Assembly (NCBI RefSeq): GCF_026151205.1
Contig: NC_087074.1
Coordinates: 13,663,167 to 13,727,166 of the forward strand
Direction of reading: 5' to 3'
Length of the DNA stretch: 64,000 nt
DNA from: Bolinopsis microptera
Taxonomy: Eukaryota > Ctenophora > Tentaculata > Lobata > Bolinopsidae
The first letter of the stretch is position 1. The number at the start of each line of letters is the position of its first letter. The notes below the pieces were generated by a model. The model was not told where the DNA came from, did not search any database, and saw nothing but the letters and a program-made list of their open reading frames with translations. This document shows, one piece after another, positions 24,085 through 52,716 of the stretch. The translations under genes were made by a program, and so were the position numbers.

Positions 24085-27000
24085 TTAAATATCTGAGTCA
24101 GGTGGAGGCAACGCAGTCAAGATTGGCTCAGGATGGCCGGAACTGGAGGAATTTGTTGGAGCAGCTAACTGTTTCGGATCTCTACTTTTTCCTTTTTTGT
24201 TGTGTGGCCACATTTTGAACCCTGTTGCAGGTTGAACTTGACCCGACTCTTCCTCTTCATTATATCTTTCAACGTCCTCGATCATCAATTTGATGTCTTG
24301 TTCTGTCAGTCGACCTAGGTTAAACTGTTAACAAATTTAATCGTGAGATTTAATACTAAAACTGTCTTCTTAATCCTTATTATTTATTAATTCTTTCTCG
24401 TCCGTTGAAAACGAAATAATAATGTACATTTACTTTACCTTTATCATTCTTGATTGTTATAGATTTCGATTCCCCGGTGCTTCTATTCATGGCAGACACG
24501 TTTAAAATTCCATTTGCATCCAAATCAAAGGAAACCTACGGGATTGTTTGATAAACCTATGATGAAAAAGTAAGTATACACATCATTTTGCCCAAAGCTT
24601 TAAAAAGGTGATTGGTGAGCAAATTCAACAAAAATCCATGTGTGCAAATTTGTGGAGATAGTGTGAGAAATCGTAACACTGTACATAATTTGTGATGACC
24701 TCTTGCGCCCTTGATGGCAAACTCAAATATATAGCTGTTGTGTCTTTGCATAATGAGATAAAATAGGAAAATCGAAAATATCAACCTCTATAGCTGGAAC
24801 TCCGGCTAGAGCTGGAGCAATACCCTGCAGCTCGAAAGTTCCAAGTAGGTTATTATCTGCTGTCTTAGAACTATCTCCTTCAAATACCTGTATTTACATT
24901 TAGTGGTTCTCGGTAATACCCGTATTCGTTTCATGACTAAAAAGTTTAAATACCACTCATACCAGTCTCGTTGTTAGTTTCTGTTTAAAAAGTGCAATTT
25001 TGTTCACTATGCAAATATAGTCATTCATACCTGGACATTCACATTATCTTGATAATCGACATAGGTTGTGAAGTGTTTCTTCACATTCATTGGGATTGTT
25101 GAATTGCGATGTATAAGAACTGTCATCTGCCCTCCAACCGTCTCAATTCCAAGTGATTGTGAGGTGACATCAAGGAGCAAAACATCTTCTATCTAAGAAT
25201 TTGGTTTTGGCTCATCCCTAGTATTTCAAGGTATTTCTAATTCATTGATGTGTCATCAACTAATTTACATAATTTAAACAAGTTAAATCAAAGATTTGTA
25301 AATGATAGTATTAGAAAAGAAAACGGTTACAGAATGAGCACCTGCTCTGATTTATCTCCAGCAAGAATAGCACCTTGAACAGCAGCTCCATAAGCTATGG
25401 CTTCATCCGGGTTTATATCTGTATTTATCTTTGTTCTCTGTTAGTGGGGTTCTGTACAATTTTCTTGCAACGTTTATTAAATAGCTATTTTAGTTCAAGT
25501 TTGAATTAGTTAATAGTATTTATAGGCTAATTATAATTTACAATTTTCTTTTAAAAATAATTCTTACTTACTGTTCCCAGAATCCCGGAAAAGTACTCTT
25601 CAATGAGGTTCCTTATTTTTGGAATCCTTGTTGAGCCACCCACTAGAACAACTTCATCAATCTGCCGGACTGAAAGCTTAGCATCATCTAATGCTGTACC
25701 TATATATTCCAATGTTTTCTTGAAAACTGGAGTTGTGAGGTATTCAAACCTGAGTGAATATAAACATAAATAGTATTTTTGTAAATCGCTAGTAATACTG
25801 CCTTTGCCCTTTCAGTATTATCAGGTTCATGAACTAGCAATATAAACCAATTATTATAAAATTGCACTGTTAATTATTTTTGATATAAGTTGATTCAATA
25901 TTCAGTTCACAAAATTAGTGGTAGCTGTAGGTTTTTAAATACTTATACTCAAGGTATGTTATTGGCTACCTGCCAAAATAACTGTTGCACACGGGTGTTC
26001 ACACTCCAGTCTGGTGCTGAAATCTAGGCTGTCCACAAGTTTAGAGCTGTAAAAACGAGACGGTTTTGTTTTACTTACTTAGCTCTGCTTAGAGAGGTAG
26101 AAAAGTCTATACCATCACACAAGTTTTCTATTGTTATAGTTGTTTGTACTTTTGAGGAGAGTTCTCGTTTTGCTTGTTCCGCTGCTGCTTTCAACCTACA
26201 AGTTTTAAAATTGTTCAATCTTCTCATCTTTTATCATAAAAAAGTTTATAATACAAGAAAGCATAACTGTTTAATTTTAGAATGGATTGATTGTTTATTG
26301 TAATAACAACACCTTGAAGTAGCTCTACTGTTGTTAGAAACGTTAATGCTGTACTGTTCTTTAAACTCCTTCATCAAATATTCTACTATCAGATTGTCAA
26401 AGTCTTCCCCTCCTAAGTGCGTGTCTCCTGCTGTCGACTTAACTTCAAATATCCCTTCATCTGAGGTACAATAACAATGTTCATTACTGCTCATTATGAT
26501 ATACTATACATCTTTTGATCTCATATCTCCAAAATTAGAAACGTAGCAATGATATACTATAGAAGAGCTGCCAATTCTAGGCCATAAGTGTTGCTAAATC
26601 TGGGCCGTGCAACTCAATATTTGTGTACACATTTTGTCTCTACATTTTAACATATAGATCCGAATCTAAATGTTTTCCTAACCTATGCTCAGCACCGATA
26701 CATCGAAAGTTCCTCCGCCAAGATCATAGATCAATATGTTCTTTTCACCTCCGGTATCTTCTAAACCATATGCTATTGCCGCAGCTGTTGGCTCGTTTAT
26801 TATTCTCATAACCCTTAGCCCTGTTACGTTTAATCGAGTGAGAATAAATAAACTAACGATAATATGTAGATTTTTAAACTGCAGAATTCAAATCAAATTG
26901 TGAATATTTGATATTGAATATTTTAATCAACTTTTCATCTCACCACCGACTATAACACAAATCATACCGGCAATAGTGGCGGCGTCTTTAGTCGCCTGGC

Positions 27001-52600: not shown

Positions 52601-52716
52601 AGGCATGCTCTTGCCCACGTCTAGTATCAGATCAAGTGGGATGGTGATGGGTGTCTCGTAATCATCCACCGTCTCGCTGGACAGAGAACCTCTGCTGGAC
52701 GTTCTGGATGGTACAC
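40662..52716 (-). CDS. FGD-type Rho/Cdc42 GEF (DH-PH-FYVE-PH), 3' 14 exons
   Basis: Exons (minus): 52716-52566, 52118-52000, 50506-50349, 50147-50045, 48924-48790, 46860-46735, 44894-44740, 42814-42644, 42390-42280, 41938-41841, 41641-41557, 41368-41225, 41039-40930, 40716-40662. All are GT-AG with continuous phase, giving 572 residues; the 5' end is missing. DH domain: QEFVYTEKTYVKILGVLNTF through LLLYPVLRIKQYQELVDRLI and the helix FHEINANT. First PH: GRVFLRRGMVRHV to WVHDLKF. FYVE-like finger of eight cysteines: CMVCGITLGRDKRQRTCKLC then LCTRC and VCESCY; the usual RRHHCR motif is KRQRTCK, so PI3P binding is doubtful. Second PH: LSGYVYVRSQNRTQWRRRWL to WLQVLEKATL. This domain order is that of FGD1-4, activators of Cdc42 and actin at membranes. 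Five exon borders carry tandem duplications. Confidence 0.93.
41923..42012 (-). repeat. 64-bp duplication over a FYVE exon acceptor
   Basis: ACCGCGTACACAACACCTAC begins at 41923 and again at 41987. On the minus strand each copy has CATTGTAG|GTGTTGTGTACGCGG, the acceptor and first bases of the exon that starts at 41938; the spare acceptor is at 42002. Confidence 0.9.
42176..42305 (-). repeat. 65-bp duplication over a FYVE exon donor
   Basis: AGTCACTACTAACACAAAGT begins at 42176 and 42241. Each copy holds the exon end and donor AACAAG|GTAGG; the working donor ends the exon at 42280 and the spare one lies 65 bases further into the intron. Confidence 0.9.
42815..44739. other. FGD intron, nothing else seen
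   Basis: No other gene recognised. Phases across this intron match directly (0 to 0), so no exon need be missing. Confidence 0.5.
44895..48789. other. FGD introns on either side of exon 46860-46735
   Basis: The intron between 46861 and 48789 contains two pairs of related segments: about 47455-47570 with 48125-48240 (AGATAAAGATAACATCT) and about 48025-48112 with 48245-48335 (AAATTTGGCAGTTTATTTTT). These are diverged old duplications or a dispersed repeat. No other gene. Confidence 0.5.
48904..49470 (-). repeat. 40-bp minisatellite, 14 copies of a 3' splice site
   Basis: Units of 39-42 bp starting at 48904, 48944, 48983, 49023, 49064, 49104, 49145, 49185, 49225, 49266, 49307, 49347, 49389 and 49430. 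On the minus strand a unit reads CTAACCCACCCCCGYACAG, then GTAGATCGAGCAGTATTGTC: a branch-site-like CTAAC, a C-rich tract, the acceptor, and the first bases of the FGD exon beginning at 48924. The exon-proximal copy is the one that fits the reading frame (EGRSSSIVSIPNLLLYP). Confidence 0.95.
50133..50218 (-). repeat. 43-bp duplication over an FGD exon acceptor
   Basis: GTAGTCAGTGTATAGCTGAA begins at 50133 and 50176. Each copy has TTATGTTCAG|CTATACACTG on the minus strand. Use of the distal copy (exon from 50190) would bring in a stop, so the proximal acceptor at 50147 must serve. Confidence 0.9.
50507..51882. other. FGD intron with a tandem repeat
   Basis: About five units of TATAGGACTC(TA) lie at 51320-51390. 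No other gene seen. Confidence 0.5.
51883..52000 (-). repeat. 33-bp tandem repeat carrying an FGD donor site
   Basis: GTACCGTTA recurs at 51897, 51930, 51963 and 51996, with a partial fifth at 51883. On the minus strand each gives TAACG|GTACGTATTTC, so donors end at 52000 (used), 51967, 51934 and 51901. Because 33 is a multiple of three, the array also reads as a periodic peptide (YFLFYFTSNGT). Confidence 0.93.

Follow-up and report, generated by a model that had tools for sequence, protein, structure and literature searches.

The DNA analysed here, called the window below, is a 64-kb stretch of the genome of the ctenophore Bolinopsis microptera (64,000 nucleotides; contig NC_087074.1, positions 13,663,167 to 13,727,166 of the forward strand), and our subject is a set of six tandem arrays in it, each of which spans an exon-intron boundary and thereby multiplies a splice site. 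All six arrays and both of their host genes lie on the minus strand. One host is an Hsp70-family gene with exon matches at about 24.8-28.0 kb of the window. The other is an FGD-like gene at about 41.8-52.7 kb with DH, PH-like, and FYVE parts; the PH-like part matched Pfam PH at 0.0017, under the family cut-off. That the DH and FYVE parts would form a single gene is judged solely by their order and strand. A search of the window against Rfam gave no match.

The six arrays had been reported in a first-pass annotation of the window, and all of them exist. Five were recovered by Tandem Repeats Finder (TRF), and the sixth, an imperfect duplicate with a 64-bp unit, was outside the TRF list and was plain on direct reading (Table 1). 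When the exon-edge bases were located by exact sequence, the six junction coordinates of the annotation proved exact; its unit lengths were matched as well, those of 32, 33, 65, 40, and 43 bp by TRF and that of 64 bp by direct reading. The arrays multiply three donors and three acceptors. Four donor copies were counted in the Hsp70 array, three exact copies and one with a single-base difference in the DH array, and two in the FYVE array, and the acceptor copies numbered two at 50147, 14 at 48924, and two at 41938. The five introns that bear these arrays are 400, 1493, 201, 1120, and 341 bp in length; the description of the introns as long was not borne out, here or in the larger sample described below. 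In the 341-bp FYVE intron both ends are repeated, and the units differ between the ends.

Junction arrays outside the window

The six of six in the window could not be judged there because the pattern was first noticed in it. We therefore sampled 58 other stretches of the Bolinopsis microptera genome (L001-L058; 270,657 bases), chosen by Pfam matches to HSP70, myosin head, SNF, kinesin, tRNA-synt_1, Cpn60_TCP1, and Adaptin_N, with part of the listed matches taken. The first 40 stretches were picked before any repeat outside the window had been viewed. The other 18 were taken later, after a 25-bp limit had suggested itself, with their own repeats unseen except for L051, which was not blind because it adjoins L032, whose end had already shown an array. 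Four further loci, mainly for paralogue comparison, were left out of the counts. To place the junctions, we combined exon matches, reading phase, and a trained GT/AG matrix; at L018 and L032 the donor or acceptor chosen by the script was shifted by hand to the protein-fitting site. This gave 569 junctions in 57 loci, L006 being without a usable junction. Among them, 392 came from 196 resolved introns and 177 were one-sided, with large hidden Markov model gaps between the exons and a good splice site present.

The median length of the 196 introns was 230 bp, and the mean was 466 bp. Since introns are this short and the arrays are 100-570 bp long, chance overlap of an array with a junction is fairly common, and a proper null was needed. 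Under the tolerance null used here, a duplication may fall anywhere inside the intron or may span a single junction, in which case splicing is rescued by the exon-proximal site. The main count covered arrays within 200 bp of a junction. Two arrays on junctions had compound TRF periods, namely 109 bp at the L028 acceptor (basic unit 21 bp) and 144 bp at L051 (basic unit 46 bp).

For periods of at least 25 bp as listed by TRF, 15 arrays lay on a junction and 17 beside one, with 6.7 expected on junctions (p = 6e-4). The pattern is thus not peculiar to the window: 15 of the 569 sampled junctions, about 2.6%, carry such an array. All 15, seven at donors and eight at acceptors, were checked by translating the exon end within the array, and they were coding ends of the sought families. 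The kinesin gene of L036 has 52 donor units and 112 acceptor units, and at L051 the acceptor of the kinesin exon encoding FIDLAGSERA is repeated across at least 0.8 kb. Among arrays of at least four copies in this period class, 11 were on and four beside a junction, with 3.4 expected on (p = 2e-5).

Since the GC content is higher at exon edges (46%) than in intron flanks (34%), the test was repeated with GC-matched positions. The arrays of at least four copies then gave 11 of 15 against 4.8 expected (p = 0.001), and all 32 arrays gave 15 against 7.3 (p = 0.001). As the excess persists at matched GC, composition accounts for part of it, not for all. When arrays were classed by basic unit, the 25-bp class had 14 on and 17 beside (6.1 expected on, p = 8e-4), and the 15-24 bp class had one on and 40 beside (4.4 expected). 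With basic units and without L051, the counts were 13 on and 16 beside (5.7 expected, p = 0.0014), and for at least four copies nine on and three beside (2.4 expected, p = 3e-5). By halves, arrays of at least four copies gave six on and two beside (p = 0.001), and three on and one beside (p = 0.017). The second batch without L051 had five on and three beside (1.25 expected, p = 0.003); these five include both weak cases, L052 (27 bp x 2.1) and L056 at 6222 (26 bp x 2.0). Furthermore, neighbourhoods of 100 bp and 400 bp gave p = 0.007 and p = 9e-5, respectively, and periods of at least 30 bp gave p = 0.002. Taken together, these counts support non-chance placement outside the window for periods of at least 25 bp only, and in practice for amplified arrays only.

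Reading frame and use of the copies

When the exons of the window genes were joined at the exon-proximal sites, the proteins were unbroken and matched RhoGEF (5.6e-20, exons a-d), FYVE (5e-9), and HSP70 (1.2e-26). The exon-proximal copy is probably the splice site that is really used. A rival acceptor AG at 48911, 13 bases downstream of 48924, was rejected, since of the two sites 48924 alone joins exons c and d in phase.

The basic units of the junction arrays in the window and the sample measure 21-65 bp, and the copies are homogenised. Their length is divisible by 3 in four of the 21 junction arrays (with the two compound arrays, L028 and L051, counted at 21 and 46 bp), so that there is no sign of inner copies serving as coding sequence. 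The 32-bp Hsp70 unit holds an in-frame stop, and use of an inner donor would therefore truncate the protein. The 33-bp DH donor unit is in frame without a stop; inner-donor use there would add 11 residues per copy. In the 11 arrays measured, the copies were near-identical, with 0-2.3% error to the consensus, from which it follows that the junction arrays are young.

Table 1 Junction arrays of the window with their splice sites and adjoining exons and introns. Positions are those of the window; a slash marks the splice point.
Feature	Position (strand)	Unit x copies	Splice site and copies	Remarks
Hsp70 donor array	27747..27880 (-)	32 bp x 4.2 (TRF)	CAG/GTATTAAAG; exon edge 27866; copies at 27834, 27802, 27770	100% identical
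Hsp70 intron	27466..27865 (-)			400 bp; starts inside the array; next exon from 27465
DH exon a	52000..52118 (-)			in spliced RhoGEF match
DH donor array	51893..52005 (-)	33 bp x 3.4 (TRF)	TAACG/GTACGT; exon edge 52000	
DH exon b	50349..50506 (-)			in spliced RhoGEF match
DH acceptor array	50127..50226 (-)	43 bp x 2.3 (TRF)	TTCAG/CTATAC at 50147; further copy at 50190	closes 201-bp intron
DH exon c	50045..50147 (-)			in spliced RhoGEF match
DH acceptor array	48897..49470 (-)	40 bp x 14.2 (TRF)	CACAG/GTAGATC at 48924; AG present in every copy	placed by reading phase
DH exon d	48790..48924 (-)			in spliced RhoGEF match
FYVE donor array	42176..42305 (-)	65 bp x 2.0 (TRF)	AACAAG/GTAGGT; edge 42280; copy at 42215	
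FYVE acceptor repeat	41921..42028 (-)	about 64 bp x 1.7	ATTGTAG/GTGTTG at 41938; further copy at 42002	approximate outer limits, by eye
FYVE exon 2	41841..41938 (-)			FYVE match 5e-9

Other repeats and elements

Some repeats were observed at other borders of coding sequence. In the window, a 59-bp unit repeated three times at 31682-31860 (minus strand) straddles the stop-codon end of an open reading frame (ORF) at 31800-32915, which looks by eye like a G-protein-coupled receptor and has no Pfam match; coding borders other than splice sites may thus be repeated too. In the paralogous SNF transporter genes at L064 (3382-3701) and L065 (1966-2301), a 66-bp unit with about five copies or more includes the likely start codon and the first codons, and the repeated border is either that of the start codon or an acceptor. 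The same paralogues, about 93-99% identical in aligned blocks, differ in an Asn/Thr-rich 27-bp array (14.9 copies at L064 572-973, 8.6 at L065 590-821), which appears to be coding and not at a junction. Short CTAATTA-like arrays end 3 bp before an acceptor at L044 (2306-2355) and L057 (1302-1346, sense), and they look like multiplied branch-point motifs. In one kinesin intron at L032 (2696-4038), two large arrays whose 35-bp units are nearly the same lie end to end in opposite orientation.

Elsewhere in the window, a 331-bp satellite at 7077-11935 forms two blocks of opposite orientation to the two sides of about position 9.1 kb, 113-bp arrays lie at 13402-15918, and a 185-bp array lies at 63087-64000. 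Unbroken runs of 59 and 24 G were found at 53916-53974 and 52795-52818, respectively. A long ORF at 21941-23764 (minus strand), with a reverse transcriptase match below the cut-off (Pfam, 6e-5) and a GIY-YIG-like end by eye, is probably a Penelope-like element. A reverse transcriptase resembling that of long interspersed nuclear elements occupies 2008-3811 (plus strand), where the ORF at 2459-3811 matches RVT_1 (7e-31) and the ORF at 2008-2538, which overlaps in a different frame, appears by eye to be its start.

Discussion

The first-pass annotation knew of no named system that covers this pattern. One has in fact been described, namely the mirages of amphioxus. In the parts of the two reports available to us, these are minisatellite-like tandem duplications with units of 10-160 bp over 5' and 3' exon-intron boundaries; they occur in Adh3, the globins BflGb6 and BflGb9, troponin C, and PGBD5 (PMC3087553, PMC3902484). 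Many units carry AG/GT signals, the copies are homogenised, and the host reading frame is intact; normal splicing and length variation between alleles were also reported (PMC3087553, PMC3902484). As far as those parts allow a comparison, the Bolinopsis arrays likewise span 5' and 3' boundaries, have homogenised units of minisatellite size, and leave the frame intact. They differ in that they belong to another phylum and are longer than the amphioxus arrays named there, with up to 112 copies and 2.9 kb, and in that a rate over 569 junctions and an excess over tolerance have been measured for them. Whereas normal splicing and allele length variation are on record for amphioxus, the Bolinopsis arrays are known here from sequence alone. 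Having the sequence features of mirages, they most likely add a new phylum to the class. No earlier report of ctenophore mirages was found in the open-licence literature searched, a scope outside which most subscription papers fall.

We consider the Bolinopsis arrays to be mirage-type junction minisatellites, that is, random, harmless local duplications that are preferentially amplified or retained if their unit includes a splice site, and we give this reading a probability of roughly 0.75. Local tandem duplications of 20-70 bp would arise as readily over exon edges as within introns. One that spans a donor or an acceptor would do no harm while the exon-proximal site is in use, because all sequence beyond that site remains intronic; the unbroken spliced proteins support this step. 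Unequal exchange or slippage would then expand and homogenise some arrays, up to 112 copies. Finally, in Bolinopsis microptera, expansion or retention would be favoured for units overlapping an exon edge, a step that is the statistical result of the sample outside the window. The annotation had offered harmlessness of the spare site as one of two explanations. That part is consistent with the unbroken proteins and with the scarcity of units that are multiples of 3, but harmlessness alone does not predict the excess of amplified arrays.

The main alternative is pure tolerance, in which duplications land anywhere, those at junctions survive like intronic ones, and the six of the window are a lucky cluster. 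Several results weigh for it and against favoured expansion. Introns are short, and chance overlap is therefore common. Arrays of fewer than four copies with periods of at least 25 bp showed no excess (four on, 13 beside, 3.3 expected). With all periods of at least 15 bp pooled, 15 of 72 arrays were on a junction against 11.0 expected (p = 0.12, not significant; with basic units, 10.5 expected, p = 0.09), and periods of 15-24 bp gave none on and 40 beside (4.3 expected). A first count at periods of at least 15 bp, over 159 resolved introns including that of the window's Hsp70 gene, gave 7 of 48 against 6.15 expected. The splits by period and copy number were made after the data had been viewed, and their p values are hence exploratory. 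The first batch alone (L001-L040, basic units) had eight on and 13 beside (4.45 expected, p = 0.052). The excess shrinks to 13 against 6.5 (p = 0.005) when the weak cases at L052 and L056 are removed, and to 11 against 5.5 (p = 0.01) when L051 is removed as well and basic units are used. Moreover, the 15 arrays fall in 11 loci (10 genes, since L032 and L051 adjoin) and are not fully independent, and the sampled genes are conserved families rather than a random draw, from listed matches used in part. What speaks against pure tolerance is the placement of the amplified arrays, 11 of 15 against 3.4 expected, or 4.8 when GC is matched. We therefore regard pure tolerance as tenable but doubtful. 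Accordingly, the annotation's view that the placement is beyond chance is supported for periods of at least 25 bp (15 against 6.7), in practice for amplified arrays, and is not supported for arrays of fewer than four copies; the scan of exon borders against a null that it had proposed, run here on the 569 sampled junctions, gave an excess at 25 bp and above and no significant one when all periods from 15 bp were pooled.

The absence of an excess among low-copy arrays together with its presence among amplified ones indicates that growth or survival differs when the unit holds a splice site. One possible reason is selection for multiplied sites, in which extra copies make splicing of the intron more reliable and expanded arrays are kept. 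The restriction of the excess to amplified arrays is in line with it, as is the invariance of GT or AG in all copies of the 14 arrays examined out of 21, where none of 28 columns varied against 2.7 expected (p = 0.047). Variation does occur in the wider splice-core columns (3 against 6.4 expected), and with arrays this young the invariance test is a weak one. Selection on spare splice sites is thus suggestive only, and as the whole explanation we think it unlikely. Within the preferred reading, that of random, harmless duplications with favoured expansion, the favoured step may be due to the richer composition of exon edges, to weak selection for spare splice sites, or to both.

The other explanation offered by the annotation, that the duplication process itself favours splice-site sequence, fared worse. 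Here short direct repeats in such sequence (AGGT and the like) would trigger duplication. The exon starts with GT in six of 11 acceptor arrays compared with 35% of other acceptors, but this excess is not significant (p = 0.21). By eye, the presumed original unit of the Hsp70 array has an identical hexamer at its two ends; however, exact 6-base direct repeats with a spacing of 20-70 bp span junctions about three times less often than they occur within introns. Because such seeds are rarer at junctions and low-copy arrays (four against 3.3 expected) are not in excess, seeding does not appear biased toward junctions, and we hold this explanation to be improbable.

Tandem arrays are also sites where assemblies fail. 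As far as the available part of its report goes, the Bolinopsis assembly was built by wtdbg out of PacBio reads, and short reads served for polishing, which can smooth repeats; the same part states that PacBio coverage exceeded 70x, that haplotigs were removed, and that Hi-C was used in curation (PMC10232365). An assembly artefact is nevertheless very improbable, since copies vary within arrays, many separate loci are involved, and both donors and acceptors are affected.

Duplication has also been connected with new introns. Intron gain by tandem genomic duplication was reportedly described by Rogers in 1989 and by Gao and Lynch in 2009. There, as here, the duplicated segment includes AG/GT; the difference is that the new intron lies between two copies, whereas the Bolinopsis arrays multiply an end of an intron that is already present. 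A case in potato RdRp has been reported, to judge from the part of the source at hand (PMC4974935). The annotation had raised this route for the present arrays, and our counts do not favour it: a repeat covering both intron ends, the signature of such gain, was found in none of the seven junction arrays in resolved introns (six of the sample and the window's Hsp70 array). Human segmental duplications likewise contain variable internal tandem repeats at exon-intron boundaries, which can alter splicing (PMC2812944). In the accessible part of that report, the human repeats lie in recent paralogues and are linked to new introns, whereas those of Bolinopsis lie in introns of conserved genes. Two of the six window arrays, the Hsp70 donor array and the DH acceptor array at 50127..50226, were sought in the genome with very common words skipped; they matched only themselves, showing no dispersed homologous copies of the introner kind, and therefore look like local products rather than a dispersed element. 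Thus an introner-type mobile intron-making element, or intron creation through internal exon duplication, is hardly credible although the units sit at intron ends and bear splice signals, because the units vary between genes and include the host gene's own exon end, the two sought arrays match only themselves, and none of the seven arrays in resolved introns spans both ends.

In the parts of the reports available, mirages have so far been described gene by gene as a lancelet feature (PMC3087553, PMC3902484). Their occurrence at about 2.6% of the sampled junctions in a ctenophore, far from the lancelets, suggests that they are widespread or have arisen repeatedly. The measurable excess of expanded arrays at exon edges further separates two questions, whether duplications start at junctions, for which the sample gives no evidence, and whether they expand there, for which it does. 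As a tentative extension, which we rate as possible rather than likely, some property of the splice site might drive or preserve the amplification, either because redundancy is selected for or because splicing or transcription acts locally at exon edges; a few percent of ctenophore junctions would then hold an expandable store of spare sites, by which introns grow longer and from which new introns could be made. The arrays are, furthermore, natural cases in which the spliceosome must pick among 2 to 112 near-identical sites.

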